The notes under the pieces were generated by a model. The model ran no database searches and was not told the DNA's origin. It worked only from the letters and a program-made list of their open reading frames with translations. A stretch of 64,000 nucleotides of DNA from Clytia hemisphaerica (lineage: Eukaryota > Cnidaria > Hydrozoa > Leptothecata > Clytiidae): contig CACVBU010000681.1 of NCBI GenBank assembly GCA_902728285.1, positions 3,574,413 to 3,638,412 of the forward strand, in the 5' to 3' direction. The translations under genes and the position numbers were made by a program. The first letter of the stretch is position 1. Each line of letters starts with the position of its first letter. This document shows positions 1,480-62,750 of the stretch, piece by piece.

Positions 1480-2062
1480 CAATTTTTTGCGATTCGCCTT
1501 ATCAGACACGTCCAAACCAAGTCCAAAAAAGCACGATTGCATCCAGTCTTTATCAAATTTAGACAGTAGCTGTACTCTTGTAAACTTTATCAAATTCCAA
1601 TAACATTATAACACCATCAACCCCACCTAGAGGCAAAAAAGAAAAATATAAAAAGCAGCAATAAAAGTATCAGAAAATTCAACACAAACAAAAACTTGAG
1701 CAAACGGCTTTAAACCTTCAAAGATGTAAAAAAAGAATCCCCTTGATGAAAATCATGTGTTTGATTTGCCGAGTTAAAAAAATGAATGACAGAAATTGAA
1801 GCTTGCAACAGATTTACACTGGAAATACTTTGGTACAACACTGACTTATCACATCTGAGCCGCCATCTTGAAACACCACATTATGATCTGTAAAAACAAC
1901 GCACGCTAAAAGTACCTAAAAAGTTAACCCGATCAGAAGAAAGTTTAGAAATAAAAGTGAGATCGGGAAATCGGATTTTTTTTTTGCCGTCTTATGGAAG
2001 AAGTAGAAGAAAATTTTACCTATTTGAATGCTCAGCTTAGGCTGACCAATCAGTCATATAAT
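1480..2062. other. intergenic DNA left of the first long repeat block
   Basis: AT-rich sequence without a supportable gene or RNA. Similarity to the downstream block at about 17.24 kb begins only near position 2063, so this stretch is taken as outside flank. Confidence 0.35.
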
Positions 2063-2384
2063 TAAAAAAGTATATTACCCTGTCTCAATTTAAAAAGTGA
2101 CGTAACACAGACTAGCGAAGTCATTCGGGCCACATTTTCTCGGCCTACCGACTTATCAACCTCTCTCAGGCAAATAATCCGGCTAAACAGCCGGTTTAGG
2201 TTCTGGCTTAAGGTCAATTGCGGCTTAACTGAAAAAGGGCGTTAAACTACGGTGGTAAAGGCGCGAATTCCTTTTCTTAAACGTCCTAAAACGAAAGTGA
2301 TGACTTAAAGATAAAAAAAATCAATATGGGCGTGGCTCCAAAAGGGTGTGCTACCTTTATTATAAAATCTTTCTTTAATGGAAT

Positions 2385-2645
2385 AAGGCTTCCTTCTTTA
2401 AGAATAGTGCCAAACGTATGCTTTTAAAGAACAAAATAGTATATGCTTTTGAACAATTCCTCCAAAGTAGTATACTTCGTCCTTTAAGAACAGTACCATT
2501 CTTATGCTTTTAAAGAACGAAGTATTCTGTACTTTTGAACGATTTCTCCAAAGTAGTATAGCAGAACAGTAGTATTAAGAACAGTACAGCAGAACAGTAG
2601 TATTAAGAACAGTACCATTCTTATACTTTTAAAGAACGAAATATC
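2385..2645. repeat. decayed 86-bp minisatellite units (left block)
   Basis: About three degenerate units of the same 86-bp repeat that is cleaner at 17,575-18,005. Each unit holds an inverted pair, a form of cttcgttctttaa and its complement ttaaagaacgaag, so each unit can fold into a hairpin. The middle is disturbed by a short local duplication (agcagaacagtagtattaag, twice). Confidence 0.7.
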
Positions 2646-3218
2646 GACTTATAGAAAAGACCACACCCTAATGACCTGTCTCATTCTCTAAAGATACATT
2701 GCACAGACTAGAATTGAACTGACTAGAATTTCTCTTGTCTTAAAAAAAATAGAATTTGGTCAAAATAGACCTTGCTAGACTGCCGAGTAAATCACACCTT
2801 CTCAAGCTTACAAAATATCAAACCCCAATTCTATTGGCCAACAATATAAAAAAAATTATTTATTCAAAATTTATTTAATGAGATTTTTTATAGAATTTAA
2901 AAAGGTCATTACACATACTATCTAAAAACTATCTAAAAAACTATTATCCCTGTCTCAATTTTAAAAGTGACGTCCACATACAAGCATAGCATCTCAGGCT
3001 CAGAAAATGACGGCTTAACGGCTTACCAACCCATCTCAGGCAGAAAATCCGCCTAAAGGGTCGGTTTGGGTTCTGGCTTAAGTCAATTACGGCTAAACTC
3101 GGAAAGTGCGCTAGACTCCGGTGGAAAAGGCGTGGTTCCTTTTTCATTAAATTTAACAAGTCCCAAATCGAAAGTGATGGCTTAGAAATGTAGAAATAAA
3201 CATGGATGGGGTTCCAAT

Positions 3219-3483
3219 CAATGAAGTATAAGCCCGAAGGACTAGAAGTCAATCTCTTTGGTAGGATTTGAAGCCAACAAATCCTACCAAAGTTGCGCGG
3301 CCTTGAGCGACCCGCCTGGTTTTTACACAAATGACAGATTGAAACTAAAATTTACCGCTTAATTTCGAAAAATATATCACTCGAAAACAAAGGAATTGCT
3401 AGATTCAATCCGTCATCAAAAATACGGCGCATATTTTAAGGCTTCAATTTTTCTTGCCTGAGAAACGGGCTTGAAACTCAATG
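3219..3483. mobile_element. 265-bp hAT-like MITE with 8-bp target-site duplication
   Basis: Flanked by direct 8-bp copies of gttccaat (3211-3218 and 3484-3491). The ends are imperfect inverted repeats, caatgaagtataagcccg at left and cgggcttgaaactcaatg at right. The homologous site in the right block (about 18,860) has no insert, which confirms the boundaries. Eight-bp duplications and ends starting with CA suggest a hAT-type non-autonomous element, by inference. Confidence 0.8.
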
Positions 3484-3649
3484 GTTCCAATAAAGCGTGG
3501 TCCGTTTATGAGAAAAGATTTTTTTATAAGAATCTAGATTATTTTTTAAGAACAGTTAGACTAAGAGTTGTTTATAAAGAACGAAATATTCTCTTTCATG
3601 TGAAATTTTCCAAGTTTGAAAACGAAAGTACTTTGACTCGTCATTTCAC

Positions 3650-4857
3650 AGGGGGGTCGGTAGTAAAATCTCAGACATCATAACGTTTACTACGGTGGTG
3701 GTGTGGTATTGAAATGGGTGGTATCTATGTGTTAAATTTTGAAAATTTTTTACTGCCTGGGTAGTTAAAACTGGTAAAATTAGCAAATTTTAGCTATGTA
3801 TTTTTGTAATTCTGTTAATTTCTTGGATGACTTTTCTGAAAAAATCTGAAATTTTTTATAATTTGAAAAAATTTTCTATAGGAAAGTTGTTTGCTGCAAA
3901 CAAGAAATTCTCTAAATTTTTTGTCAATATAAAAAATATTTTAATTTTAAGGGCAAAACATTAGATTCTGCACTAAGTGAAAAATGTGTCACAGAAATAA
4001 TCATTTTTTAGCTTTTTTTGTAAAATAAGTCCGGAAAGCAACCAAAGAATAGGTGGTCTCCATGACAAATTGTCCCAAAAGTTTTACTATCCGGGTAGTA
4101 AAATACCTCTTCCAAAAGAGTCTGGGCATGAACATATAAACGACTGGACATCTATATTTTATTGTCTCTTTGAAGCGAGCTTCGTTGCCGCCTGTATTTC
4201 AAAATTGGTATGAAAAATCCGACAATATTCCGTCATAATTTTATTTCCTTGAATTATTTAGGTAAAAGGATTGATAGAGCTTGAACATTACTCCCAATCT
4301 ACAAAAAAATTATTTTCGAATTTTTTCACAAGTTTGTAATATATTTTATCAACATTTTTAACTCTAAAATGCAGAATTTCAACTGCGTGTATACTTTTGA
4401 ATCCCTTTTGTCACTTCAATAATTTTTTTTATGACTTGAAAAAAATAGCTTGCCAAAGTTCAGAGCCTGTGTCATAAGAATATCGAAATTAGAATGCGAC
4501 ACTTTCTAAAATTATTAGACACTTTTAAGTCAAATTATTAGTCGAAGTTTTGACAAGCTGACGATTATTTTGCCTCTGTTATCTTTGTTATGATATAGAT
4601 AAAAGACTTGAGAAGAGTAGAACAACAGAGACTTTAGTCGAAGTTTTGACGTTGTTAGCAAGGTACTCCCAAGTGGTATATCATCAAAATCTATTGTTTC
4701 ATTTTATGCTTTTAACGAGGCGGCAACGAAGCTAGCAGCTTTTTCTACAAAAAGACAAAGGAGATGGATGTCCAGTCGTTTATATGTTCATGGTCTGGGT
4801 AATGGTATGTAAAAATTCGGAAAAATATATGTCTGAGATTTTACTACCGACCCCCCT
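3650..4857. mobile_element. 1.2-kb TIR element interrupting the left block
   Basis: The ends are aggggggtcggtagtaaaat plus ctcagacat, and its exact complement finishing attttactaccgacccccct, a TIR of about 29 bp. The right-block homologue near 21,035-21,045 is uninterrupted (catcccacccacc), so this is an insertion. The bases just outside both ends include cac, so a 3-bp duplication is possible. No ORF resembles a transposase. A second MITE (4127-4792) is nested inside. Confidence 0.8.
4127..4792. mobile_element. 666-bp MITE nested inside the 1.2-kb element
   Basis: The 28-bp TIR begins catgaacatataaacgactg and recurs inverted at the right end. Further inverted similarity inside includes cttcgttgccgcct versus aggcggcaacgaag. 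The direct 7-bp gtctggg at 4120-4126 and 4793-4799 is a target-site duplication. Insertion into an already inserted element gives a relative age order. Confidence 0.8.
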
Positions 4858-6668
4858 GCACCCACCAAATTGACGGCTTAACGGCTTACCAATCTCTCTC
4901 AGGCAAAAAGGGTCGGTTTAGTTCTTGGCTTAATTTCAAGTTCGGCTTAACTCAAAAAGGAGTTTGGGTGGCAAAGAGTTGTAACTTTATTTTAATTTAA
5001 AAAAGTGCAAAATTTAAAGCCAATTTATTGAGATGAGCACACCCTAATGACCATGAAAATTTTAATTGTTTTACTTTTCTATTGCTTACAGTAAAAAGTT
5101 TTGAAAATTTTATAAAATTCTCCAGAAGTCACCACATAAACTATTAAAGATTTCCCTGTCTGATCCTCTTAAAGTGACATTAGCAAAGCATCTCAGACTC
5201 AAAAAATTACGGCTTAGCGGCTTAATAACCTTTTTCAGGCATAAAGAATGGCTCACATGACAGTCAAGAGGCTGGCTTAACTCATATAACGGCTCAAAAT
5301 AAGAAGGCTTTAAGAGAATTCATGAGATTTTTATAAAATTTAAAGGTCATTACACAGAGTACTTAATTAAAAGCTAATACACCCCTGTCTCAATTTCAAA
5401 AGTGACGCTGCAGACTAGGGCAGTCATTGTAGACCCACAATTTCTCGGCTTATAATTGTTTGAATCCAATTTGGGTGTTGTCAAAACTGGTGACAAGTAA
5501 ACCACACCTCCAAAGTGTTAAAGAGATGTCTAACCCAAATTTCACTGGTTAAGGTAGACAATTCGTGTAAAAACTTGAATCAAATTTTAAAGGCCACCGC
5601 ACAGACTATAATAAAAAAACCATATTCTCCTGTCTTAATTTTAAAAGTGTCGTTACACAGACTACAATAAGTTTGGGCTCAGCTCATTATGAATAAAACA
5701 TTCATTAAAAAATTACGAAAAATGACTGGCTGTTCAGAAGATTCATTGCACGTCAATTACGGCCATTCGTTTCTTATTTACATAACAATTTAAAATGAAC
5801 CAGCCAAAGGAGCAAGAAAATTAAAACAAACAATTCTCACCATCGACGTCGTTAAAATGTGTCTTGGGAGAGCGTTCACCACTGTCGTGCTGTCAAGTTG
5901 CCGTTTAGGTTTCATTCCCAAAAAAAACAACCACCAAAAAATCAAAAAAACGTGTTCACCGAAAAAAATTCAAAAAAACTAACTTTCTTGCTGTTTTGTT
6001 GTTTACAAAATTGTTAAGCCGGTTGCAGAACCTTATTTTCATCTACCGTTATATACCTTTTCGAATAAAGAGTTCCTTTTTCCCTTGAGGAAGGTCTCTT
6101 TAATTTAAAGTTGAAAAAATTAGAGGGTACCATTTATCCTTTTGGGGACAATTTTTTCGGTACTCACAATACCTTTTGAAAATATTTAGCAATCTATTGT
6201 TTCCAACATTGAAAGGAACACAGTGATTCATGATGATTGAACAAAGGGGAACACATTGTTCTGAATAGGTATCTTGATTAAGAGAGTCAAATGACACTCA
6301 GTGATCCTCATGGGATGACCCAGTCAGTTCCTTTGCAAAATATAATTATAAATGGTAATGATTTATAATTTCCAGAACGTGTTCTGTTTTTATGACAAAA
6401 TTACAGACTTCAGATAGGAATGCTTTTTTTACAATTTTTTAACGAGTTTGCACATAGAAAAATTGTTGTAGGATGGAGTTCTACCATTAGCGAGCTTTAC
6501 ATAACTTTAGATAATTACATAACTTTGAAGTTCAAGAACGTGATATTGTGCTATCAATTTTCAAACATAACATTTAGTGATTACTCCAAATTTTACTTCC
6601 CTCACAAAGGAAAAATTATCATAGTTTCGTGCAATTTCGCCTTTTTTCGATCAACTTTTCACGATAAA

Positions 6669-8617
6669 ATGCCTAGTAACGAAAAGGATCACCCAAGACG
6701 AACAAAAAATGTGCAAGAAAGTAGAAAAAAACTTGACATGTCAAGGGTGACAGAAAAGGACAATCGCCTATAGCAAAGTAAGTGGACAATTAATGCCAGG
6801 AAAATTATTTTCTAAAAAGATATGGAAGAATGCCGTCGGGCCAGTTCGAAGGCAAAAAGGCTACACCTCAAAGAAGATTTGGATGGACTTTTTTATTGCC
6901 CAAATCCAAATTGTGACAGTTTTCTTTTACAACCAAAAGAGGGTGCCGTAAACACGTTTTTACCAGGCATGGATGGTACTACTTTTTCGAAACGAGACCT
7001 GACCCAAAAGTTGTTTTGCCAGAACTTTCGACACGGAGTGAAAAACCAAATAAATCTAGGAGAAGTAGAACAAACAATATGCCAATGTTTTTGAAAGACT
7101 GTAAATTTGATAAGATGCTCAAGCTCTGGCTTTGCAGCCCTGGCGGAGGAATGAAGAGCTTTAGCCAAGCAAGCCAGATTAGTTGCCGTGTCTTAAAATT
7201 CCTCAAATTTTGCTGCCAAGACTGCTGTACGAGCTGGGATATCCCGTTTACGGTAGTAGATTTTTGCTTGGGAAACGTGACCGCTATATCAGATTTTATC
7301 GAATACCTTAAAACCCGCTGGGAAGTTGGCTACGCTGGTATTATTGGATATATGCATTCTTTATCTCATGTTTTAGACTACCGCAGAATTGAAAGAGGAG
7401 ACTCACAAACGACATTTTTATCGTCGGAAATCTATATCGACCGGGTAAAACTTTCACCATCTAAAAAGATGAGATCGGAATGGAATGTTTTGTTAAGTGC
7501 CGAATACCTATCAAAAATTAACTGTTGGGCCACTCTCGACGAAATGCAAAAAGTCGTACCATATCACACGGACAGGTTTTCACAAATTTTACTGAATGCC
7601 TCGGATGAAGCCCTTCCGTTGCCACCACACGACTTATCTTTCTGTACCTCCTTTTTAACGGCCATATTTTTCATCGTGATAAAAGCTACAAGGCCGATGA
7701 CCTTTCAATTTCTTACAGTCGAAATGGTGGAAAATATCAATGAAAGGGGCATGATAGACCAAACTGTTTTTAAAACGCAGGAAAAGTATGGTTTTGACAC
7801 TTTGATATTTTCTTCGGAAATCATAGAAATAGTTCACAGGTATATCAAGTATATTCGCTCAAGGCTCAACCCTAAATGCAATTACGTTCTAGTTACTCGC
7901 AACGGCACACAACTGGCAAGAATCGGAGATGTTTTCGGGAGAATCGTCTTTCAAGCAATAGGAAAATATATCAATCCGACAAGGTATCGTCAAATTATCG
8001 AAACAAAAAGTGCAGAATCCCTTAGCGTCGATGATCAAAAAAATTTGTCCGAAGATCAAAAACACACCTCGTTTGTGGCTAAAATTCACTATCAAAAGCT
8101 TCAATCGCGTGACATAGCCTTAAATGACAAGGCATCCATGAACAAGTTAAGGGATGAACAGCCCTCTTTAAATGCGATGGGGGAGATATGTGAAAGGTTT
8201 TCGAATATAGCACCAATGAATACATCTTTTCAAACGTCAGCCTCGGATTCAAGTACTGGGCACTTTGAAGTTTGGCCGAATTATTCCTTAGATGTGAACA
8301 ATTTTCCTATTGAAACTACCGATACAAGTATAATCCAAGAAGTCCAACTCCTGCCAAATGATACCTCGAGTCTACAACCCAGCAATAAATCGATAGTAGA
8401 CCCTTCAGTTAATTTTGAGAAAACATCAAAAGTAGGAAAACAAACAAGGAGGAAAAAAGTGCCTTTTTCTTCTATAGAGGATAATTTTATAAGAACTGGT
8501 TTTAAAAAGCATGGTTCTGCTTGGACATCCATCTTATCGGACTCAAGTTACAAATTTCACCCTTCAAGGCAGATTGCTACACTTTATGCCAGGGCAAAAA
8601 AATTGAATATTATTTGA
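6669..8617 (+). pseudogene. tyrosine recombinase with C2H2 finger and SANT/Myb-like tail (one frameshift)
   Basis: Two overlapping frames make one gene: 6822-about 6920, then a second frame open from 6917 to 8617. The junction needs one extra base. Across it a C-x4-C (YCPNPNC) and an H-x4-H (RKHVFTRHGW) line up as a C2H2 finger, which places the lesion near 6918-6930. In the long frame (residue 1 at 7016) an integrase-like core shows the first arginine in ATRPMTFQFL (R226), a box II-like TRYRQIIET (R323/R325; the usual His/Lys three residues before R325 is Thr), a downstream KHTSFVAK His, and the candidate nucleophile Tyr359 in KIHYQK. The C-terminus (about 475-533) starts RRKKVPFSSIEDNFIRTG and resembles a SANT/Myb domain. 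An upstream stretch 6669-6777 with donor gtaagt may be a 5' exon, but it holds an in-frame TAG at 6771. Role: DNA cutting and joining for integration or resolution. Likely non-functional as written unless the frame loss is an assembly error. Confidence 0.8.
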
Positions 8618-9040
8618 GTGATAAATTTTAAAATATTGTAAAGATCATTGTTTGATTCTAAAATTTAATGTAAATTTGAGGTAGAACTAGAAATATGCAG
8701 ATTTCATATTCATTTTTCTAGGAAAACCGTGTTTAAAATAATTCACATGAAAAAATTCCAAATTGTTCCATATTTTCTATCTGCATCACTAACTTTAAAT
8801 GTCCAAATAATAGATACAAATTTCCGACTCGAAAAATTTGATTTGGGTTGATTGAAGAAAATTTTTCCGTTTCAAATTTCTTTTTGAAATTTTAATTTCT
8901 TACAAAAAGTGGAGAGAGATAAGCCGTGAGTTAAGCTGTGGGTTTGTGTTCGGAGAATCGATACGGCAGTGGTATGGCCATTAATTTGTCACTATAGGAA
9001 CAATAGTTCTGTATAGTAAATTGTAATAGGGATTGTCTAA
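8618..9040. other. intergenic spacer between recombinase and small acidic gene
   Basis: AT-rich. The first half holds no signal beyond the recombinase 3' flank. A short degenerate fragment of the long repeat block (ataagccgtgagttaagc) lies near 8920. The second half leads into the TATA box of the next gene. Confidence 0.4.
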
Positions 9041-9047
9041 TCTGGAC

Positions 9048-9054
9048 TATAAAT
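9048..9054 (+). promoter_or_regulatory. TATA box of the small acidic gene
   Basis: TATAAAT sits 54 bp before the ATG at 9102. Initiation about 30 bp downstream (near 9080) would give a leader of about 20 nt. Position and context fit a focused RNA polymerase II core promoter. Confidence 0.6.
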
Positions 9055-9101
9055 ACAACGCCCAGATTATCAAACAGCAAATATCACCAATAACCAACAA
9101 T

Positions 9102-9570
9102 ATGTCGAATACTCAACACCAACGAGCAATATCAGCACTTCTAGAAAGAGACGTGCTATGTTTCTCACAAGGAACGCTTGTAGATCAATTAAGAGGTGAG
9201 TTTTATCCATTTTTAACAATTAAACCTCCATTCAATTTGATAATTTTTTGTTAAAACTGAAAAGAGGGGATAGCAAAAATTAGCCACTGAATAACAAAGA
9301 CGAAGATTATTTTCAGAGCATATGAAATATTCTTGTCAAATCTTCTTCCTTTTTTTACCAGCAATCGAGAAACAAGGAAAGTCACAACCACAGCCCGTAA
9401 AGGAAGTGATTGTTGTGAGTGATGACGATAATAAAGAGGAACAAACCGAAAAGAATCTTCGAAAAGAAAAGAAAACTCCGCCAAGCAAGCAAATAATCCA
9501 CGTTCAGGCAAAATTTGTCCAAGAAGGGACTGAAATAACATTTTCTGTGAAAATTATAAATAAAAAATAA
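9102..9570 (+). CDS. small spliced acidic protein with SUMO-interaction-like motif (100 aa)
   Basis: Two exons: 9102-9195 (31 codons plus one base, donor gtgagt) and 9362-9570 (acceptor after ctttttttaccag). The phases agree and give exactly 101 codons including the stop. The N-terminal 31 residues look helical (SNTQHQRAISALLERDVL). The second exon holds EVIVVSDDDNKEE, a hydrophobic run followed by acids that matches SUMO-interaction motifs, then a Lys/Glu-rich linker and a short beta-like tail ending FSVKIINKK. The stop overlaps an AATAAA polyadenylation signal. No enzyme signature. It lies downstream of the recombinase on the same strand but has its own TATA box. A nuclear adaptor role is inferred only from the motif. 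Confidence 0.65.
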
Positions 9571-9760
9571 AACTTTTAAAATTTTAGTTGTTTTTTTAAT
9601 ATTGATGTGCCACTCCCTTTCAAGAACACGCCTCTTTCATAATATTTGTTCAATTTGAAGAAAAGAAATGACTCACGCCTTTCCAACGAAGCCTAACGCC
9701 CTTTTCTAAGTTAAGCTAACGAATTCACGCCTGTCTTCCACCCAAACGCCCATTTTTTAA

Positions 9761-10014
9761 GGGCTACTTAGACTACACAATATATTGACGAACAATATTC
9801 GACAATATGGTTTGCGGACCGTAATGTACGAAGTAAACAACAGGTACTCTATTATAAAAGGAATTTTCTTTCTGTAAACAATCCCCCTTTATTGTTGGAA
9901 TATTGCAAATCGAGCTGACAATATATTGCGGACACCTTTTCAATATATTGCCGACATTCAGCAATATATCATCAATATATTGCCTGACAATATATTGTGT
10001 AGTGTATGTAGCCC
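9761..10014. mobile_element. 254-bp palindromic MITE, first tandem unit
   Basis: The ends are gggctac followed by actacacaatatattg, and the inverted form caatatattgtgtagt ending gtagccc. The interior has several caatatattg palindromes. It sits in the inverted repeat block after ttttttaa; the sister module at about 10,555 reads ttttttaattaagccgg without it. TTAA (left) and TTTA (right) suggest TTAA-type targeting, as in piggyBac-like MITEs, with one mismatch. Confidence 0.75.
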
Positions 10015-10263
10015 TTTAGACTACACAATATATTGACGAACAATATTCGACAATATGGTTTGCGGACCGTAATGTACGAAGTAAACAACAGGTACTCTAT
10101 TATAAAAAGGAATTTTCTTTCTGTAAACAATCCCCCTTTATTGTTGGAATATTGCAAATCGAGCTGACAATATATTGCGGACACCTTTTCAATATATTGC
10201 CGACATTCAGCAATATATCATCAATATATTGCCTGACAATATATTGTGTAGTGTATGTAGCCC
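10015..10263. mobile_element. second tandem unit of the same MITE
   Basis: Nearly identical to 9761-10,014 at an offset of 248 bp, differing by one A in a homopolymer and by its joined left end (tttagactacac in place of the full gggctac end). The near identity shows a recent tandem duplication. The two units share a short junction. Confidence 0.75.
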
Positions 10264-10934
10264 TTTAGTTAAAGCCGGATTTAATTTAAGCCTGAAACTA
10301 AACCGACCCTTAAGCCGGATTTTTTGCCTGAGAAGGGTTGGTAAGCCGTTACAAGCCGTCATTTTGATGGTTGGAATGACAATTCAAAGTACTTTCGTTT
10401 TCAAACTTGATTTCAATAAAGAAAATAGTTTCTAATAAAGGGGCCACGCCTATTTTAGACAACGCCCAATTCGTTTGAAGTTACCACTTTCGTTTTGGGA
10501 CTTGTTCAATTTGAAAAAAATAAAATGAGTTAACGCCTCTCTACCACCCACACGCCCATTTTTTAATTAAGCCGGATTTAATTTAAGCCTGAACCTAAAC
10601 CGACCCTTAAGCCGGATTTTTTGCCTGAGAGGGGTTAGTAAGCCGTTAAGCCGTCATTTTGATGGTTAGAATGACAATTCAAAGTACTTTCGCTTTCAAA
10701 CATGACAATCTTTTAATGGAATACTTCGTTCTTTATAAGAACTCCTTATAGAAACGTTTTTAAAGAACGAAGAATATTAGCATAAAGAAATTATTTAAAG
10801 CCATAGAATATTTCGTTTCTTTATGATCCAAAAGATTTTCCCAGGTGACTCCCTTTTTATTTGGTAAATTTTCGGAACTAAATAAATAGGCGTCTTGGAA
10901 GACTGACAATATCAATTTTCATCTCAATTCTATC

Positions 10935-11538
10935 ATGGAGCGAGTTACAATATTTGATTCTATAACTAAAGAAAAGATAGACGGCTTCACAGCTTACGTT
11001 CAATCTTCGAGCAAAGAAAAATTCACAAAAATACGAAAGGAATTATTTGAATTAATTTCTGATGATCTGTTGCCCAAGATATCTCTTTGGCCTAAGAAAT
11101 ATCGTTTGATGTGTTTTAAGAGACCTTTGGGGGATCGGGATACCGCCACCATGTTCTGGTTTCTACTTGGTAAGTAACTTATTACTGAACCACCTGCACT
11201 TTACGTCAAAGAATTATTCAGTGAACAATTTTGAATAGTGTCAATGAGAGATGGTTGTTTTGCAGTATTCTTTATACTGTCACTTTAAAGTAAATTTTCG
11301 TGTTTTTCATTGTTCGGGTAATGGCGTATCTCCAATTGTTACGGCACAATGGATCATTTCGTCGTATCACACGTTAAAAGACGACAAACGGACGACAAAT
11401 GCCAGAAAAAAACAAATCCAGAGCCTCTTCGAATCGATGGAAATAAAAAAGCATGACCGATTTTATTATTCGTTATTTCACAAAAGGCAATTCTATTTCG
11501 ATGGTAGGTCACGTGATGTAAGACAAGACCTCCATTGA
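10935..11538 (+). CDS. unrecognised spliced gene of the core (about 160 aa)
   Basis: Exon 1 runs from ATG 10,935 to 11,169 (78 codons plus one base, donor gtaagt). The only acceptor that keeps the long downstream frame open is at 11,290 (tttaaag), so exon 2 is 11,291-11,538; together they are 161 codons including the stop. That acceptor has a weak pyrimidine tract, so the junction is uncertain. Exon 1 looks like a real protein (MERVTIFDSITKEKIDG; ISLWPKKYRLMCFKRPLGD; TATMFWFLLG). Exon 2 has GNGVSPIVTAQWIISSYHTL and a basic stretch (NARKKQIQSLFESMEI). A second possible donor (gtaggt, about 11,502) would allow a different C-terminus. I recognise no family. It lies between the inverted repeat block and the convergent helicase gene. 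Confidence 0.55.
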
Positions 11539-12402
11539 CCTCTAGTCTTTAAAGTCGTTCTTCATTGTTAGATAGCATTAAATTTTTCAAGTCTACTAAA
11601 TCTTTTTGTCCATTTTATTTAAGAAGAAAATGTCATAAAACTACTATTGTTTCCCTGTTGTTTGAAACTATTGTCTTTCTAAAGGGCGTGGCAGCTACTG
11701 GGAACGAGTATTGTTACAGCATTACATTTCTTTTTTAAAGAACGAATCAAATGAATGAAACATCTATTGCGTTATTTAAAAACACTAGAGAAAACAATGA
11801 GAACAAAGAAGTTTATTCTATTATGCTCAGCTGATTCAGCAGCCGAGTCAAATCTTTTTCATTTTTCTTTCATTTTTTCCTAGCACAAACTAGGCATTAA
11901 ACACACAAAGTATTGACCTACGATAAATCAAAACTAAAATTCTATGCGATCTACAAAACTCAAATATATTATATTGAAGACCAGTAGAAGGAATATTGGA
12001 AGTGAAATGCATTCAAAACATAACTAAAAAGAAATATTACCATTTTCCCCACATGAAAATAGACACAAACGCAACAGTACACTGTTATAAATTTCTCCTA
12101 ATTTTACAGAAAATATAATTATTTTGAATTTTTAAACTATAAAAAATTAAATCAAACGCAACGGGTAAGATTCCACTAAGAGTTCAGTAACAAATCGTTA
12201 GGTGTTGCTCCACATGTCTTATTTATGGTGTTGTATTACGCACGATGATTTTTATCTGAAGACAAAAGGAAAGATAAGATTCAGATTTTTCTGTAAAACC
12301 AGTAAGTTAACCGAAAAAAATTCAGTATGTCAAATTCATTTTAATGTTGTTGACTTGTTTGATTAGAAAATTGAACAAAAGCTTGATTTCATGAATGGCA
12401 AA
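11539..12402. other. convergent intergenic region
   Basis: Lies between the 3' ends of the + strand gene and the - strand helicase gene. It is AT-rich, with one tttaaagaacgaat motif related to the 86-bp repeat near 11,735. No ORF or RNA gene is supported. It should contain both polyadenylation regions, but I see no clear canonical hexamer for the helicase gene. Confidence 0.4.
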
Positions 12403-15400
12403 CTAACCTGGCGTGGATAACTGGAGCAAGGGCGTGCCTGTGTTAATTTCTCTCAAGGGAAGGACTGGTGAAGACGTCTTTGCTGAAATTGAAAAATAGC
12501 CAAGTTTAAAAGAATGTCAGTAACTTCGTCACGATGACAACATACCATATCACCACAAGTAGTTTGATGGCAAAATGGACGAGTCCAGTCAACTGAAATT
12601 GTTAAAGTAAGATAAGCACAAAAGAAAAGAAAAAAAACACTTACCAGCTGAAAGATTGCTCTGTTTTGATTTGTTACCGACGTGGTGACAGATCTCTTTT
12701 CTGAAAATTTTAAATATAAAATGCTTTAAAACTAAAAGTCAAGTAAATAACCATCAGATCACTGCAATCATACATAAACAAATTCTGAAAAGTTTTTATC
12801 AAGTAGTAAATTGCTTACCAAATTCTGATGGTAGGTCATATTCTGTCAAAGAGTCCAAAGTTGCAATTCTCTTTACTTTTGGAATTGCAATCTCATCAAT
12901 CGTTGCTTCCATTGGCCGTTTTCGATTTTCAGTTTCTAAAAAAAGTGAAGAAAAAAGAAAATAAATCATCGTTTCCAAGGCATACAAAACACCTGTAAAA
13001 TTGGGAAAATAATGGGAAATAAGTGTGGGAAAACAAAAGAAAAGTTACTAGTTAATGTCAAGTGTACACTAAATCTAAAAGAAAATGTCATTGGAAACGC
13101 TTTTTAAACCTGATGCAATATATGCTATAGGATTTCATAGTATTCTCACCAGAAAAATTAATGATGTCAGATAAGTCCAACGTTGATATGTCTGACGGTA
13201 GAATCGATTCAATGTATTGAATGTCGCTCTTGGATTCAACTAAAACAAAAGAAAATTCCCATTTTATTTTCATCAAATAATCCTAGGCGGACGATGGGAA
13301 AGTTAATTCATCAAAAATTGCAGTATTAAAACAAACACATACATATAGTTGGATTGACAGGTTCTTCGTCGTCACTTGAAATACAAACGTGATTGGTCCG
13401 ATTCGACTTCACAAAACGGATTTCAGAATCTGAAAATAAAACATAAAAATTTGCAAAGGAAGAATAAGAAAATGAGATTTCAAGTTGAGACTGTCATACG
13501 GGGAAATGACATAGAATGGTTTACTTGTCAGATTAAGTAGCCAAGAAATAAAGCAAATTGAAAACAATCTTACCGTCACTGTCATTTTCCTCGCCATTTC
13601 CAAGCCTGGAATCTCTGTTCTCATCACAAGAATAGTACTCATCATCTGAAATGTAAAATGAGATGCAATAGAATGACAAAGTACGTATTGACATAATACA
13701 AGCTAGAAAGAAAGATCATCATAGAATCAAATAATAGAGATTTCAGATAGGACGTAAAAGTAGTCTTACCATCCCATAAGGAATCTGGTGTTGTTGGGAT
13801 CGGCGTCACCGGTGTCATTGGCGTCAAAGGGGCGCGCGGTGGACTGAAGGCGAATACAGTGCTCGCAACGTCAGCACTGCTTCTTTCCTCCATACCTTCT
13901 TGACCTTTGAGATGAAAAAAATTGAATCAGATTCATCCTAAAATATTGCATATAGACTAGGTGTCTCAATTTGGTGAAAAATAGAAAGAATTCCAGTCAA
14001 ATGAATAGAAAATGTGAGTTGAATCTTATCGAAAAGGTTACACAAAGACAAACACCATCAAAGAAAGTACCAGTCATCCAATTGATCAATAAAGCAACAT
14101 GTAAAGCTCTCACCTGTAAAGAACGGTGATGCTGTTTCTTGTGAAGATGGTGTTGTCGCTGGTGAAGTTTCATTGGACAAGGTCCCCAATGGACTAAACA
14201 TTTGAACATGGTAGCCTTAAAAGAGAGAAGAAAATAATTTGAAATGCTTTTTAGTTTTGACAGTATTAAACATACCCTTACTTTTGACTCCCTCTTCCTC
14301 TTAATTTGGTCAAAATTAAAAAAAAAGTAACGAGCACTTCTACAGTCCATACGTCTGAAAGCAGAAAGTTTACCTGTTTCAATTTCACCATCTTCCTCGT
14401 CCGTAGACCCGGTGCACTATATCAATTGCCTTGCTTTTTCTTCCGTCATGTCTATATTCAGTCTAGCGCCCGCACTGACGTCATGGGATCGCTCGTAAAA
14501 AAGTTCTTCAGGCTTTATGAGATCTCTATGGATCACCAGCATGTTTACCAGCCACATCAAATACTCAAAAGAGTGTTCCAGCATCCATGCTGGTGCCGTC
14601 ATGTCCTTTGTTTCCAGCTTTCGTGTTGTAAATTCTTGGACACGACAGTCCACGGCACCCACGTCGATCGAATCAAATTTTGGCATAGCCTGGCAGGTGA
14701 TGTAGATGCCACCATTCATCTTTGTTCTTCTTGGCTTTTGGTTTTTCACCGCTTGGCTGAAGTAACCACCTTGTAGAATAGATTTGACCTATAAAATAAG
14801 TTAAAGATAACTAAAATTCCATAATCGTTATCATACAATGACAGATTTTGCTAGATACTTTGGTCTCCTCAGCATATCTAATATAAAAAATTAAACATAA
14901 ATAAGTTGCAAGATATAAAATAATTAGTATTCATTCAGTCAATAGAAAGAATTTACACTAACCTGGTCAGGAGCCATTGTTTCATAGACCCACTCGTCAA
15001 TGAACAAAAGTTCTGTTCTTTTATTTATCATCATGGAACCAAAAGTTTTCTCTTTGCTAAATATGGCAACGTTGTTGTGTGGAATAAGCCCAAGAAGAAC
15101 GTTGGCCCATGATGTTTTTCCGGAGTTATTGCTACCTGAAGAAAAGTAAGAAAAAAAATTCTGAGAACTGTAGTCGAAACAATATGAATAAACAAAACAT
15201 GCAAAATTACATTATCCCCTCCCAAATATTTTTCCAGAATCAAAAATACCTCAATGAAATACAGTTTATCCTCAGAAAGTTAGAAAGTTGGCACAGCTCA
15301 CACCGCTCCAATAGTAAACATATTCATACCACTCGTTACGATTCGTGGTACTTTGTGTGGGAACTGGAAGCACAATAAGCACTGGTAGAACTTGTTCAAA

Positions 15401-16768
15401 AAGTTGACACGCTCCCTCAGTTCTGGAAAACTGTTTTCCACGGACGTTGTAAAGCAGCCACCATCACACTCAGCGTTAGAATCAAAGTTTTTTCGATTTT
15501 CCCAAACTCCTCTTCATGGAATGGCACCTGTACAAAGCTCTCTGTTGAGAATTTGAAGAACCAACCACCATTAACCTCTATATAATCGTAGTCCATCTCG
15601 ATGGAAGGTAACACCTATTAGAAAAATTAAACAGTGCGTTTTATTTCAGAAGTAACCGTTAAACCGATTCCAAATCTTATAACACTCTCAAAATTGAAAT
15701 CTAGGTTCAAGGACGATTTAATAAATCCACTAATTTGATACCTTAACAAATTCTGCCTCCATGTGTGACCTGATCTTCTCTTTGTGTAGGTCAATCTTTT
15801 CACCAAATTTTCGATTGGCACAAAGTGTCTCGAGATATTCGTCAATCGAAGAATGATATTTGAAAGCGTAAGTTGCTAAAAAACGAGAAAATAGAAGAAT
15901 CAGCAAAGTTGAAGATAGAAACAGCAAAGCAAAAACAGACAGCCCCCCCCCCCTCTAAGGTTTGAGCTAGTAAATGACAATCGAAAGGAAAATCACATGA
16001 CATACCGTTTGGCTCCTTTTCAAAAATGGCGCCATTATGAATGCGATGGTTCAATTTCATCATCACTCGCCTTACTCGGTCAATGGTTTTGCCCTGGGAG
16101 GTTTCCTTTTCAGGAACGAAGGATTTTGGAGTTTCACCCAGCAAAGATATGTGTTGATGACAAAATCCTTGCTCCTGAAGATACCGTGATGCCTCTCGAA
16201 TTTTGAAATCCAATTGCGATGAGCAACATACCAATCGTGTGGAAACATATCCTTTTGGAACTTTGTCCTTGACCAGTTGTGAGTTGTAGTCCTAAAGCAA
16301 TGGAAGAATATTAACGGTTAGGTTAACTATTTTTCTATCAGATGCTAAACCGATGTAATTTGTATTAGCATTAAAACAATGAACTCAAACAAAGCTGAAT
16401 TTTCATACCTTTACCACTTGCTTTAGTTTGGCCAAAAGCACATCTGATTCCCCCATCTTTTTGGTGTTTCTTGTCTTGATGGGGTGCTTTGTATGTTGGA
16501 CACGTTTCTCGACATCGTAGACGAGATCATAAATCTTGGTTTCCGTCAAACTGGTTGACTTGTGCGCCACCAAGAAGTACGCAACACCGAAAATGAAATC
16601 GTCTGCTTTCTCTAAAACAGTGGAGACGGCGGTGCAGCTCGAAATAAAAAACTTTACTTCGGGAAGAGCAGCCAAGGCATTGTCTAGCTTACGCTGCACT
16701 GATGTTAAGTCTGTTTGGCTGCTCAGTATTAATGAACGGAACGGGAAAACTTGATCTGTGTCACCAAT
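12403..16768 (-). pseudogene. spliced SF3 helicase gene with long regulatory tail (two lesions, 5' end missing)
   Basis: About 16 exons, read from 16,768 down: 16,768-16,409; 16,291-16,006; 15,875-15,742; 15,614-15,330; 15,135-14,963; 14,788-14,374; 14,299-14,282 (18-nt microexon, doubtful); 14,215-14,114; 13,904-13,770; 13,645-13,574; 13,429-13,343; 13,239-13,150; 12,935-12,819; 12,695-12,645; 12,592-12,554; 12,482-12,403. Reading phase agrees at nearly every junction. Walker A is GSNNSGKTSW, starting at the 15,330/15,135 junction. Walker B is RTELLFIDEW. The SF3 motif C region is GGIYITCQAMPKFD, then CRVQEFTT. The tail after the ATPase has TP/SP-rich segments (APLTPMTPVTPIPTTP), acidic stretches, a VCISSDDEE SIM-like motif, basic ENRKRP and PKVKR, and a Cys/His cluster (ICHHVGNK; FCHQTTC). 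Lesions: one base missing in 15,418-15,513 and an in-frame TAG at 14,417-14,419. No start exon is found before the repeat block at 16.79 kb. The role would be replicative unwinding. Confidence 0.8.
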
Positions 16769-17574
16769 CTAAGGGTTAAATAATGAATGATGTTCTTAAA
16801 GAACGAACCAAGACACTATTAAAAAAGCATACTCTAATCACAATTAGGACTAGATTGTAGACTAGCAATAATTCAAAGACTAATCGTCCTATATCAACAG
16901 GTCATTGCACAGACTATCAAAAACTTATTTCCCTGTCTCCTCAACACCTAAATGAACGTTACACAGACTAGAGCAGCTTTAAGCTGAAATTTAAAAGGTC
17001 ATTACACAGACTATGTAAAAACTTATATACCCCTGTCTCCATTTCAAAAGTGACGTTACACAGACTAGAATTTCTCTGGTCTTGAAAAACAAGTAGAATT
17101 TGGTCAAAATAGGCGTGGCTAGAGTGCTGACGAATAAATCACAACTTTTCAGATCACAAAAAATATCGAAACCTAATTCTATTGGCCAATATAGAAAATT
17201 AATGAGATTTTTTATAGAATTTAAGAGGTCGTTACACAGATTATTAAGAAAGTATATTACCCTGTCTCAATTTAAAAAGTGACGTAACACAGACTAGCGA
17301 AGTCATTCGGGCCACATTTTCTCGGCTTACCGGCTTATCAACCTCTCTCGGGCAAAAAATCCAGCTAAACGACCGGTTTAGGTTCTGGCTTAAGGTCAAT
17401 TACGGCTTAACTAAAAAAGGGCGTTAAACTACGGTGGTAAAGGGTGTGAATTCCCTTTCTTAAACTGAACAAGTCCCAAAACAAAAATAATGACTCAAAG
17501 ATAAAAAAACAATATGGGCGTGACTCCACAAGGGTGTGCTACCTTTATTATAAAATCTTTCTTTAATGGAATGA

Positions 17575-18005
17575 AGTTTCGGTCTTTAAGAACAGTGCCA
17601 TTCGTATACTTTTAAAGAACGAACTATTCTATGTTTTTGAGCAATTCCTCCAAAGTAGTATACTTCGTTCTTTAAGAACAGTGCCATTTGTACGCTTTTA
17701 AAGAACGAAGTATTCCATGATTTTGAACAATTCTTCCAAAGTAGTATACTTCGGTCTTTAAGAACTGTGCCATTCATATGCTTTTAAAGAACAAAGTATT
17801 CTATGTTTTTGAGCAATTCCTCGAAAGTAGTAAACTTCGTTCTTTAAGAACAGTGCCATTCGTATGCTTTTAAAGAACGAAGTATTCTATGCTTTTGAAC
17901 AATTCCTCCAAAGTAGTATACTTCGTTCTTTAAGAACAGTGCCATTCATATGCTTTTAAAGAACGAAGTATCAACTTATCGAAAAGATCACGCCCTAATG
18001 ACCTG
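17575..18005. repeat. five 86-bp minisatellite units with internal hairpins
   Basis: The tacttcg motif recurs at 17,661, 17,747, 17,833 and 17,919 (exact 86-bp steps), with a first diverged unit at 17,575. Each unit contains tacttcgttctttaa and, about 30 nt later, ttaaagaacgaagta: 15-nt arms of a stem-loop. No ORF of interest runs through it. Confidence 0.85.
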
Positions 18006-18166
18006 TATCATTCTCTAAAGAGACAAAAATTTAAAATTTCTCTTGTATTAGAGAACAAATAGAGTTTTGTCAAAATAGGCCTTGCTAGACTGCTGAAGTA
18101 AATCACACCTTCTCAATCTTACAAAATATCGCCTGTCTCAATGTCAAAAGTGACGTTACACAGACT

Positions 18167-18628
18167 AGAATTTCTCTGGTCTTAAAAGACAAGTAGAATT
18201 TAGTCAAAATAGGCGTGGCTAGAGTGCTGACGAATAAATCACAACTTTTCAGATCACAAAAAATATCGAAACCTAATTCTATTGGCCAATATAGGAAATT
18301 AATGAGAGTTTCTATAGATTTAAAAGGTCATTACACAGACTATGTCAAAAAACTAATATACCCCTGTCTCAATTTCAAAAGTGACGTTACACAGACTAGA
18401 ATTTCTCTGGTCTTAAAAAACTAGTAGAATTTGGTCAAAATAGGCGTGGCTAGAGTGCTGACGAATAAATCACACCTTTTCAGATCACAAAAAATACCGA
18501 AACCCAATTCTATTGGCCAATATAGAAAATTAATGAGATTTTTTATAGATTTAAAAGGTCGTTACACAGACTATCTAAAAACTAATATACCCCTGTCTCA
18601 ATTTCAAAAGTGACGTTACACAGACTAG
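18167..18628. repeat. 231-bp tandem units of the 'gttacacagact' module
   Basis: Two units start at 18,167 and 18,398 with agaatttctctggtctt. A third, related unit lies at about 17,067. Each runs through taggcgtggctagagtgctg, attctattggccaatata and cccctgtctcaatttc, ending at tgacgttacacagact. The left block has one diverged unit (about 2710-2970). Confidence 0.75.
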
Positions 18629-18956
18629 CATAGCATCTCAGGCTCAGAAAATGACGGCTTAATGGCTTACCAACCCATCTCAGGCAGAAAATCTGGCTTA
18701 AGGGTCGGTTTAGGTTCTGGCTTAAGTCAATTACGGCTTAACTGAAAAAGTGCATTAGAATCCGGTGGAAAAGGCGTGATTCCTTTTTCATCAAATTTAA
18801 CAAGTCCCAAATCGAAAGTGATGGCTTAGAAATGAAGAATAAGCATGGGCAGGGTCCTAATAAGGTGTGGTCCCTTTATGAAAAAAGTTTTTTTAGAAGA
18901 ATCTAGATTCTGTCTTTAAGAACAGTTAAACTAAAATAAACCATGAACCTTCCGAC

Positions 18957-20623
18957 ATGAACAATTACTATTGTAATCTTGCTTCTAACCTCACAAAAAA
19001 ACCTAATAAACCTGCAAATTATGATAATTTACTGGGTAACCCATCCATCGAAAATGATGAGAATGTTTTTACAATCAAGCATACGAATTATGAAGAGGTC
19101 TTGAGTATACTTAAAAAACTGAAAAATGATTGCTCAAGCGGGTATGACAATATACCGGTACGATACCTAAAGCCAGTCAATGAGTACCTTGTATCTCCTC
19201 TTGTTAACATTATTAACAATTCAATCGATAAGCATTTATTCCCAGATAAGTGGAAGATTGCTCGAGTCAGCCCAGTCCCAAAAATTGACCATCCAACGAA
19301 ATTAAAAGACTACAGACCAATATCAATCCTACCGGTTTTATCGAAAGTCTACGAACGTGTTATTTTAACACAATTATGCGATTTCATTGAAAGGAATTCA
19401 CTTTACCGTCCAAATCAATCTGGATTTCGGAAAGGGCACACCACAACAACGCTACTCTTAAAACTACGTGATGATATAATCAAAGCTATGAATAAAAGTG
19501 AAATTACACTATCAATTCTTATCGACTACTCCAAGGCATTCGATACGATCGACCATTTTACCCTCATTGATAAACTTAAAAAGTTAAACTTTAGTTCCAT
19601 GTCATTGCAAATCATTATAAGCTATCTCACAAACCGTCAGCAATTTGTGCAAGTGAACGATAAAAGATCACCCGTTCAACCCATTCACTTTGGTGTCCCT
19701 CAAGGCAGTATTTTGGGTCCAGTTTTATTTAACCTATATGTTACCGAATTATCTGACCAAATCTCCTCTCTCAGTATCCAATATGCTGATGACACAACGC
19801 TTTATCGTCACTCAAAAATTCGTGATATACTTCAATGCATCCGGGAAATCGAGACTGATATCGAATCACTTTCCACCTGGTCAGCTGATCATAATCTCTT
19901 GTTCAATGCTGATAAACTGCAATACATCATCTTTTCAACCAAACGTCTAGCGTCATATCACAAATTATGTAGTGACTACTCGTATCTTATTTCTTGTTCA
20001 AAAAAATCAATTGAACAAAAAGATGTTGTCAAGCTTCTTGGTCTTCATTTTGATAAAAGTCTATCCTGGTCCGACCATATCAACCAAATTATAAAATCCA
20101 GTCATGGTACCATTCGAGCTCTTCGTAATTTCCAACGTTTCACACCATTTAAAGTTCGGAAATCACTCGCTGAAGCTATAGTGCTATCGAAAATAGCGTA
20201 CTCCATAGTCGTATTCGGACAGATCCCCGATTACTTATTAAATCGTCTGCAACGTATACAGAACATTGCTGCAGGATATGTCCTAAACCGATATGCCACA
20301 CTGAAAGATGTTGTCGATCTGCAATGGTTACCAATAAAAGAGCTTATTGATTTTAATGTTTCCAAACTTGTTTACAAGGCCCTTAATGATAAAAAATGGC
20401 CTTCATATCTTTCTTTGGTGAAAGTAACTCAGCCTCGGAAGCTTCGCTCGCAGGATGATGGTATTAAAATTGATTTTGGCTTATCTAAGACATTTCAGGA
20501 CCAAGCTCAAATTTTTAACGAACTCCCGAAAATATCAGGGAAATCAAAGACCTGAAAGAATTTATTAAAGAATCAAAATTGTTTTTTAAATCTAGGGCAC
20601 ATACTCGTGCAACACAACAATAA
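18957..20623 (+). pseudogene. reverse transcriptase of the non-LTR element (one frameshift)
   Basis: The open frame 18,957-20,555 carries ordered RT motifs: LKDYRPISILPVLSKVYERV, QSGFRKGHTTTTLL, ILIDYSKAFDTIDH (motif A, catalytic Asp), FGVPQGSILGPVLFNLY (motif B), IQYADDTTLY (motif C, YADD) and KLLGLHFDKSLSWSDHI. After NELP the frame runs into an early stop. The neighbouring frame continues with IREIKDLKEFIKES to TAA at 20,621-20,623, so one base is missing near 20,525-20,530. The endonuclease part is lost by 5' truncation. It lacks an RNase H domain, as in CR1/jockey-like elements. Dead copy. Confidence 0.92.
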
Positions 20624-20919
20624 AATTATAAATTTATGAAGATCTATTTTTACTTTATTACTTACTAAATATTTCCACTACTATTATCCACTATCCTTTT
20701 GCTAGTCCCTATTTCGATACAATCTACATTCAGCCTTTGTGTCTTAGTTATCCAACTCCATTTCATGTCTATCTAGTGGTCTAGTTTTAATAAAATTTTA
20801 TCCAGAAAATTTGTAAAAATATTTATATTTATTAATACTATTATTCTTTAGTGCTTTTTATTTTGATATTTATGTTTAGGGGGAAGAACAATTTTGTATG
20901 AAATTGAACCTAATAAATG

Positions 20920-20951
<32 letters not shown>
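20624..20951 (+). repeat. 3' UTR and (AAT)n tail of the non-LTR element
   Basis: About 295 nt of AT-rich untranslated sequence followed by roughly a dozen aat units. It ends immediately before the 3' copy of the target-site duplication. Confidence 0.85.
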
Positions 20952-20954
<3 letters not shown>

Positions 20955-22672
20955 CTAAGGGTTGTTTATAAAGAACGAAGTATTCTGTTTTATGTGAAAA
21001 TTTCCAAGTTTGAAAACGAAAGTACTTTGACTGGTCATCCCACCCACCAAATTGACGGCTTAACGGCTTACCTACCTATCTCAGGCAAAAATCCCGGCTT
21101 AAGGGTCGGTTTAGTTCTTGGCTTAATTTCAAGTTCGGCTTAACTCAAAATGTGCGTTAGACTCCGGTGGAAAATGCGTGATTTCTTTTTCATCAAACTT
21201 AACAAGTCCAAAATCGAAAGTGATGGCTTAGAAATGTAGAAATAAGCATAGGCGTGGTTCCAATAAGGTGTGGTCCCTTCATGAGAAAATTTTTTTTATA
21301 AGAATCAATATTCTTTTTTGAAGAATGTTTAAATTAAGGGTTTTTTATAAAAAAAAAATTATGCTATTTCATGTAAAAACTTCCCAAGTTTGAAAACAAA
21401 AGTACTTTGACTGGTCATTCCACCCACCAAATTGACGGCTTAACGGCTTACCAATCTCTCTCAGGAAAAGATTCCGGCTTAAGGGTCGGTTTAGTTCTTG
21501 GCTTATTTTCAAGTTCGGCTTAACTCAAAAAGGCATTTGGGTGTTAAAGAGGCGTAACTTTTATTTCATTTCAAAAAGTCCAAAATTGAAAACGAATTTA
21601 TTGAGATGACCACACCCTAATGACCATGAAAATTTTAATTGTTTTTTTTTTCTATTGTTTACAGTAAAATGTTTTTGAAAATTTTATAAACCTCTCCAGA
21701 AGTCACCACACAGACTATTAAAGATTTCCCTTTCTGACCCTCTTAAAGTGACATTGCACAGACTGGCAAAGCGTCTCAGACTCAAAAAATGACGGCTTAG
21801 CGGCTTTGTAACCTTTTATCAGGCATAAAGAATCGCTCACATGACGGTCAAGAGGCTGGCTTAACTCATATGACGGCTCAAAATAAGAAGGCTTTAAGAG
21901 AATTCATGAGATTTTTATAAAATTTAAAAGGTCATTACACAGACTATTAAAAGCTAATATACCCCTGTCTCAATTTAAAAAGTGACGCTGCAGACTAGGG
22001 CAGTAATTGCAGACCCACAATTTCTCGGCTTATAATTTGAATCCAATCGGGGTGTGGTCAAAACTGGTGACAAGAAAACCACACCTCCAAAGTGTTGAAG
22101 ATATGTCTAACCCAAATTTCACTGGTCGAAGTAGACTTGAATTAAATTTTGAAGGCCACCGCACAGACTATAATAAAAAAAACCATATTCCCCTGTCTCA
22201 ATTTCAAAAGTGTCGTTACACATACTACAATAAGTTTTGGCTCAGCTCATCATGATTAAAAAAAATTCATTAAAAAGGAGATGACAAGGCCTGGTGACGA
22301 GTAATCCACACCCACGTAAATGGAAAGCAAAATTACGAAAATTGACTGGCAGCTCAGAAGATTCATGGCACGTCAATTACGGCCATTCGTTTCTTATTTA
22401 CAACACATTTTCAAATGAACCATTTAAAGGAGAAAGAAAATTAAAACAAATAATTCTCACCATCGACACGTGTCGTTAAAATGTGTCTTCGGAGAGCGTT
22501 CGCCACCGTCGTGTTGTCAAGCTGCCGTTTAGGTTTCATTTCCAAAAAAACAACCACCAAAAAATCAAAAAAACGTGTTCACCGAAAAAATTTCACAAAA
22601 CTAACTTTCTTGCTGTTCTGTTGTTTACAAAATTGTTAAGCCGTATGAGGAACCGTATTTTCATCTACGGTT

Positions 22673-24108
22673 ATGCATTATGGCAGATAAGTGCATTATT
22701 GTTTTAATGTTTGGAGTTTTTAATTATCCAACATGATATCGCATCTGGCAAAAGGTCTATAGAAAGTCAGGCTATTTTATTGAGCGCTTTCGGTGGATTT
22801 AATCCCCACCAGCAGAGTGGATATCAACCTGAAGACTTTTCGGGAACATAATTTCCGTCGATTTTGCCAATTCTTGACTTTTTGCAGAATCGCCATTAAA
22901 TTTATCGAGCATTTCTTGTCGTCAAACTTTGTGGAAAGCAAATCCATCGACTGTCAAATTTTCTCAAAATATGACGATGCATAATTATTACCAACAACCG
23001 AGAAATTTATTTGAAAAAAAGTGGCAAAACAATTTTCAAAAATTGCGCGACAAACGAACCCCTAGAAAAACGCCGCTGAAAATTGAAACTAATCTTAGGT
23101 TCCAAATAAACGGGGCCCTTCCCCGCTTATTAATTTTTCGACCTTATTAGGACCCCTGTTTATTGATTGTTAAGAATGTTTACTTATTGTGGATTTTTAG
23201 ATATTCTTTTTGAGATGAGAATATTTCAAATTAAATTAAATTCAAATTTAAATTCACTCTATAGACAAGTTGCTTTCTTTCATTTTTAATATTTTCATTA
23301 TCTTTTTATTTTTTATTACTGCAAGACATATGTAAAATATAATGTAATTTATGTGTTTTCAGTTATCAATACCAAAGGAGACTTTGTTTAGTATAAAATA
23401 ATTTGTGACACTTTAACGCTTACTACTGGATTGTTTTTGTTATTTGAAAGTATGACCGAAAACATGTGTATAAGCAAATGCATAAAAAATTGTGGAAGTG
23501 AACTTGTAAAAAACAACTTTGGTAAGGATCTTCAACTTTTTGAATATCAACGTTTGTTATGGACTGCTTCATCCACTACTCCCGATTTAAGTGACTTTTA
23601 AAAAATCCAATTCGTATATCCATTGAATTTTTGTCATTCGTCTAAGTTCAACCAAGTTTGATTAGTTCGGCAAGGCGACCGTCAATAGTGTGTTCTGTTT
23701 GTATCATAGAACACATTAAATTCAGTCTGTCTATCGAGGTTGGTAGTATATTTTGTTGATTTTTAAGATCTCGTAAATACCATAAGAATTAAGTCGGCAA
23801 TCAATAAAATCAACCGGATTAGTTATTATAACAGTTATATAATTATATAATTAGTTATTTTGTATAAGTGTGTATTAATTTATTCTTTTGTTTTATAAAA
23901 CTGCAGGGAGTTTTTAATTATTCAAACAATATGACATCTTAAGTAAGTTTGTGTAATCCTGACATACCTTGACCTTGTCTAATTCCAGCATCGCAAATAT
24001 CTGATCAGCAAAGTAAATAGAGTCAGCTTACTTAGACTGTTTTATTCATATCAGATCATGAAGAACGGTGAAGAAGATAGTGCTCAATAACAAGTAGAGC
24101 TAAATCAT
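22673..24108. other. intergenic DNA right of the repeat block
   Basis: AT-rich flank with several short frames but no recognisable domain, splice-supported exon or RNA gene. A short frame at 22,793-22,984 has mixed composition without clear coding signal. Confidence 0.4.
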
Positions 24109-29544: not shown

Positions 29545-30375
29545 ATACTTTCCCTGTGTATACAAAAAGGACCATGGGGAGCCTACAAAAGGTACACAAG
29601 GTGCATACATGAAGTACATGGGGAACAAACAATACTGTAAGGTACACACAGGGAATGTATAATAAGGTACACGGGGAATGTACAATAAGGTACACGGGGA
29701 ACGTACAATATGATACACAGGGAACGTACAATAAAGTACACGGGGAACGTACAATAAATAAAGTACCCGGGAGCGTACAATAAGGTGCACGGGGAACTAT
29801 GATAAGGTACACAGGGAACGTATAATAAGGTACACGGGGTAAGGTACACGCGGAACGTATAATAAGTGTACCTTTTTGTACGTTCCTCTTGTACCTTTTT
29901 CTAGTTCCCGTGTACCTTATTGTACGTTCCCTGTGTACCTTATTGTACGTTCCCCGTGTAACTTATTGTACGTTCCCCTTGTACCTTATTGTACGTTCCC
30001 CTTGTACCTTATTGTACGTTCCCCTTGTACTTTATTGTACGCTCCCGAGTACTTTATTTATTGTACGTTCCCCGTGTACCTTATTGCACGTTCCCTGTGT
30101 ACCTTATTATATGTTCCGCGTGTACCTTACCTCGTGTACCTTATTATACGTTCCCCGTGTACCTTATCATAGTTCCCCATGCACCTTATTGTACGCTCCC
30201 GGGTACTTTATTGTACGTTCCCTGTGTATCTTATTGTACGTTTCCCGTGTACCTTATTGTACATTCCCCGTGTTCCTTACAGTATTTTTTGTTCCCCATG
30301 TACTTTATGTATGCACCTCGTTTACCTTTTGTAGGCTCCCCATGGTCCTTTTTGTATGCTCCCTGTGGTCCTTTT
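29545..30375. repeat. 23-bp minisatellite folded into an 830-bp palindrome
   Basis: The unit is gtaccttattgtacgttcc plus ccgt (23 bp). The left part (29,570-29,866) carries it reversed (ggtacacggggaacgtacaa) and the right part (about 29,867-30,375) forward. Variant units are mirrored in order: for example ctcccgggtactttatt, atcatagttcccc and cagtattttttgttcccc occur on the right, with complements at matching distance on the left. This shows one array inverted onto itself, with arms of about 300 bp and a spacer of about 240 bp. Because 23 is not a multiple of 3 and the unit lacks stops, several frames stay open (up to 190 aa, Cys/Tyr/Pro/Val-rich). These are repeat artefacts. Confidence 0.9.
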
Positions 30376-41250: not shown

Positions 41251-41319
41251 AATATTTTAAGTATAAAAATTCTTTAGAGCTTATTGCCATGTGTTTAATT
41301 GGGAAAATAACAGTGCTGA

Positions 41320-41320
41320 G

Positions 41321-41352
<32 letters not shown>

Positions 41353-62700: not shown

Positions 62701-62750
62701 GAAATGGAGACAATTAAATATAATATATATGAAAATACATCATTTCGCTC

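Follow-up and report, generated by a model that had tools for sequence, protein, structure and literature searches.

To our knowledge, there is no settled account of how mobile elements with a tyrosine recombinase (YR) increase in copy number. DIRS, Ngaro and VIPER retrotransposons combine a YR with long repeats and encode a reverse transcriptase (RT), Helitrons use an HUH Rep protein with a superfamily 1 (SF1) helicase, and papillomavirus E1 is a superfamily 3 (SF3) helicase that recruits host replication without a polymerase of its own. In the portions of the Crypton survey drawn on here (PMC3212892), the DNA-only YR transposons described from animals are simple Cryptons; these lack terminal inverted repeats and long direct repeats and have only short direct repeats at their termini, the animal forms have no C-terminal domain, the word 'helicase' does not appear, and excision and integration via circles are proposed on the model of prokaryotic YR elements. 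Polinton-like viruses and Sputnik-type virophages are reported, in the excerpted text of PMC12220804, to have YR integrases and SF3 helicase domains, and a 2017 study, in the part consulted, treats the origin of papillomavirus proteins as unresolved and draws attention to marine mobile elements as an unexplored source (PMC5618006). Here we analyze a 64,000-nucleotide stretch of the hydrozoan Clytia hemisphaerica (assembly GCA_902728285.1, contig CACVBU010000681.1, positions 3,574,413 to 3,638,412; 'the window' below), in which a YR gene and an SF3 helicase gene lie between long direct repeats (LRs). We think it probable that positions 2056-22674 are a single DNA-only mobile element of ~20 kb, or ~17 kb without nested insertions.

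The element is ordered as direct repeat, recombinase, gene A, gene B, convergent SF3 helicase and direct repeat. An earlier sequence-only reading had described a YR open reading frame, two small spliced genes on the + strand and a many-exon SF3 helicase gene converging on them from the opposite strand, and our analysis confirms this layout. The LR pair was absent from that reading and was found by comparing the window's two sides with each other. The LRs are colinear direct repeats of ~3 kb, 7-10% diverged, that enclose the recombinase, genes A and B and the helicase. Their aligned blocks are 2055-2560 with 17237-17748 (88.5% identity), 2718-3218 with 18391-18861 (82.5%), 3557-3649 with 20951-21043, and 4859-6052 with 21421-22674 (84.6%); the substitution divergence of the four blocks (Kimura two-parameter distance 0.074-0.101) is at one common level. 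The left LR ends 0.74 kb upstream of the recombinase start, and self-comparison of the window found no LR match of at least 150 bp between 22.7 and 64 kb. Each LR copy is interrupted once by a nested transposon that its partner lacks. The nested LINE in the right copy has a target duplication of ~8 bp, partly ambiguous with its (TAA)n tail.

Motifs of the LRs recur in the interior. TAAGCCG occurs 33 times within 2056-22674 and once in the other 43.4 kb of the window, while TTAAGCCG, AAAGAACGAA and ACACAGACTA occur 20, 15 and 13 times, respectively, within the element and not at all outside it; these motifs were selected post hoc after scanning for 8-mers, and the copies that stand in tandem, of which there are many, are not independent. 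Interior sites are found at 8920 (before gene A), at 10311-10762 (in an inverted LR-like block between A and B), at 11737 (after gene B) and at 16798 (just upstream of the first helicase exon found). Of the motif copies, it is the scattered interior ones that are telling for unity.

In the protein lists, the contig given for the recombinase homologue P0099 has the same size, 27,871 bp, as that given for the helicase homologue P0127. This is the sole size of at least 10 kb common to the two lists (22 and 31 distinct values; jitter control 0.0021). Judged from this shared size, the two probably lie together. Most of the listed recombinase contigs are too short for both genes, and a second helicase list added no further coincidence of this kind. 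Coincidences below 10 kb were disregarded as random (P of at least one, 0.36). The locus could instead comprise two adjacent mobile elements, a YR-only transposon and an SF3-carrying endogenous element, with the LRs owned by one of them. The lists hold no believable shared contig apart from that of 27,871 bp, and helicase relatives with PPV_E1_C or DUF5906 matches make up a broad, separate family, as this arrangement would have it. We nevertheless regard it as unlikely, given that both genes are bracketed by LRs, that LR-type motifs lie between, beside and outside them, and that one contig is probably shared. The single element is favored because the LRs bracket the genes, LR motifs recur inside and one probable second contig has both families. 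On these grounds the earlier proposal of one integrating, self-replicating element is partly supported; its replication is a putative property, as no polymerase was found and no HUH motif was seen by eye in the N-terminal domain of a helicase homologue.

The recombinase carries the YR catalytic set R-K-HxxR-H-Y, with five of the six residues invariant among 23 aligned sequences, and its predicted fold resembles XerA and Cre. The C-terminal tail is a Myb domain of the TRF1/TRF2 type. Four Pfam families match at E<=0.01, all of them Myb/SANT-type; because the matches include none of the YR families at all, the absence of the Crypton families DUF3504 and GCR1_C tells little. The recombinase family counts 509 proteins at E<=1e-3. 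In PHROGs there was no match for the window recombinase, and other family members match unnamed families only. A telomeric insertion was rejected, the window containing no (TTAGGG)2 or (CCCTAA)2, and thus the TRF-like Myb domain does not place this copy in telomere repeats. No tRNA or other RNA gene was found as a target. TTATGG, seen by eye near both outer ends and reminiscent of the TATGG termini of CryptonS, was dropped as easily due to chance.

The helicase is assigned to SF3 by its Walker A and B motifs, motif C and a D5/Rep/E1-type fold. The fold was assessed on a homologue, P0190, in place of the window copy; the predicted structure of P0190 is similar to those of the viral helicases D5, Rep and E1. 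A search by fold was required, since profile comparisons with the PDB were weak (profile A2, papillomavirus E1, 1tue, E 0.066) or returned no SF3 helicase (profile A4). DNA primase families are among its PHROGs matches, and the family numbers 202 proteins at E<=1e-3. The N-terminal ~130 residues of P0190 are predicted to form alternating strands and helices, and one row for Rep68 of adeno-associated virus spans them (root-mean-square deviation 19.6). No HxH (HUH) motif was seen by eye in this domain, and rolling-circle replication is therefore not favored.

Four of the helicase exon joints agree with a C. hemisphaerica protein at NCBI (P0121). This protein omits residues around the exon-4 frame change (15330-15614) that relatives retain, and its gene model there is probably an artefact. 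Three further Clytia proteins of the helicase family (P0156, P0237 and P0274) are on contigs of other lengths, and two of them are near-identical in their overlap (244/246). The helicase is thus no lone gene. More broadly, a domesticated recombinase beside a host helicase in a repeat-rich region would account for the NCBI protein and for an open recombinase part with fewer indels than neutral decay at the LR divergence predicts. Both genes have reading-frame breaks, though, and together with the additional, partly near-identical family members these make host genes highly improbable.

In 27 of the 32 open frames of at least 80 aa overlapping 6053-17236, the scanned set, there is no capsid, packaging ATPase or polymerase family and no RT; the sole RT is that of the nested LINE. 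Gaps between genes are at most 1.4 kb, and spliced exons below 80 aa could escape the scan. A prokaryotic or viral origin found no backing in pattern scans: those of IMG/VR with the recombinase, its alignment and the helicase alignment, and of GTDB genomes, confirmed no relatives; such scans require short conserved words, so that absence is unproven. These results bear on whether the locus is the relic of an integrated DNA virus (a Polinton-like virus, a virophage or a parvo- or papilloma-like virus) minus its capsid genes. The viral resemblance of the helicase homologue and the presence of both YR and SF3 helicase domains in Polinton-like viruses speak for such an origin; with no virion or polymerase family in the scanned frames and no relative of either protein confirmed in IMG/VR, we consider it quite improbable.

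Returning to the single mobile element, several observations weigh against it or indicate a damaged copy. Upstream segments of the recombinase, including the C2H2-like finger, lie in two other frames, although the frame is uninterrupted from 6917. In the helicase gene, the reading frame shifts partway through exon 4, and after exon 6 it is closed by an in-frame TAG (14417-14419), ahead of the candidate 3' exons. The motif C Asn is replaced by Gln in P0121 and P0129, and the pairing of YR and helicase elsewhere has the 27,871-bp contig as its sole basis. The 551-codon open stretch of the recombinase is free of indels, against 11-17 expected at the LR divergence (P about 1e-5 or less), and of stops, against an expected 2.5-2.9 (P 0.06-0.09). 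Selection may be the cause, as may LRs that already differed when the element inserted, or the fact that an open stretch was the one chosen.

Coordinates of all features are collected in Table 1. Ceramide-kinase PH, RloB and SPOC_AIPP2 matches of genes A and B were below cut-off and were set aside. The tandem 249-bp copies are probably a nested MITE-like insertion and, because they are 99% alike, probably much younger than the surrounding element.

Table 1. Features of the putative element (window coordinates)
Feature	Position	Strand	Remarks
Left LR	2056..6052	+	homology with right LR begins ~2056, ends abruptly at 6052
Nested DNA transposon in left LR	3650..4858		~1.2 kb; identical 30-bp terminal inverted repeats starting CAGGGGGGTCGG
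YR gene	6793..8617	+	N-terminal C2H2-like finger, YR domains, C-terminal TRF-like Myb domain
Gene A	9102..9570	+	exons 9102-9195, 9362-9570; 100 aa; acidic stretch after VIVV, which we take to resemble a SUMO-interacting motif
Two 249-bp tandem copies	9768..10268		AT-rich unit, inverted ends, 99% alike
Inverted LR-like block between genes A and B	10264..10778	-	has TTAAGCCG and AAAGAACGAA motifs
Gene B	10935..11538	+	exons 10935-11169, 11291-11538; 160 aa; weak SPOC-like match, E 6.5e-4, below Pfam cut-off
Candidate helicase 3' exons	12440..14416	-	acidic, Ser/Thr-rich; splice signals only, placed by eye
SF3 helicase gene	14420..16768	-	Walker A GSNNSGKT, Walker B LLFIDEW; 5' end not found
Helicase exons	16768-16409, 16291-16006, 15875-15742, 15614-15330, 15135-14963, 14788-14420	-	
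Extra LR-type sub-repeat	16989..17236	+	immediately inside right LR
Right LR	17237..22674	+	end at 22674 corresponds to left-LR end at 6052
Nested LINE in right LR	18935..20950	+	RT (RVT_1, E 9e-33); (TAA)n tail

Three structures elsewhere in the window are recorded as side observations. A large inverted repeat (40402-46215 and 60747-63435; blocks of 83-94% identity, e.g., 40746-41247 with 62762-63262 inverted) encloses ~14.5 kb and may mark the inverted ends of a further large element. At 29646-30385, a 23-bp unit is arrayed in either orientation, and both strands have open frames there of 142-210 codons. Two tandem ~730-bp units, 93% alike, lie at 57073-58591, next to sequence with strong GC and AT skew.

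If the element is real, a mechanism can be envisaged. With its Myb tail and zinc finger directing it to the iterated LR motifs, the YR would excise or resolve the element as a circle. The SF3 helicase may then assemble on the LR array as an origin and recruit a host polymerase for theta-type copying, and the YR would re-join the circle to the chromosome without target duplication. A one-repeat circle integrating into an LR copy would yield the repeat-genes-repeat arrangement. In this scenario, the LR arrays are candidate origins as well as recombination sites, and the putative reading target of the Myb tail could be the TTAAGCCG iterons or telomere-like DNA. It is a tentative proposal, for which we see the chances as close to even, that the locus represents a new DNA transposon superfamily of animals, made up of self-replicating circles that have no RT, that unite a YR bearing a telomere-factor-like Myb domain, a D5/E1-type SF3 helicase and LTR-like LRs serving as recombination sites and origin, and that live as plasmid- or virus-like replicons in hydrozoans and perhaps beyond. 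If true, the possession of LRs and a replicative helicase by a YR element would open a directly testable copy-out route (circle, replication, integration) and would link transposons with those small DNA viruses in which an SF3 helicase is used. The telomere-factor-like tail likewise suggests a testable site preference.

The claim that the locus matches no named superfamily survived comparison with Cryptons, DIRS/Ngaro, LTR elements and Polinton-like viruses, and a literature search, with most subscription papers and all bioRxiv preprints outside its scope, showed no report of such an element among the results listed, as judged by titles and abstract starts. Like Helitrons, it would be a eukaryotic replicative DNA transposon with a replication protein, but it pairs an SF3 helicase with a YR. 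It shares a YR and long repeats with DIRS, Ngaro and VIPER, whereas no RT was found in the scanned frames outside the nested LINE; nor do these frames hold the gag-pol with RT expected between the LTRs of an LTR retrotransposon. Polinton-like viruses and virophages differ in that the present element has many introns and LRs, and the capsid, packaging ATPase and polymerase genes that mark them were not found in the same frames. The closest likeness is to the Cryptons (CryptonA of animals), which are DNA-only, have a YR and are thought to move as circles. Cryptons are without long direct repeats, whereas this element has ~3-kb LRs and also carries a helicase gene, and its recombinase ends in a TRF-like Myb domain. 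By analogy, it works most like a Crypton plus a plasmid-type replication module.
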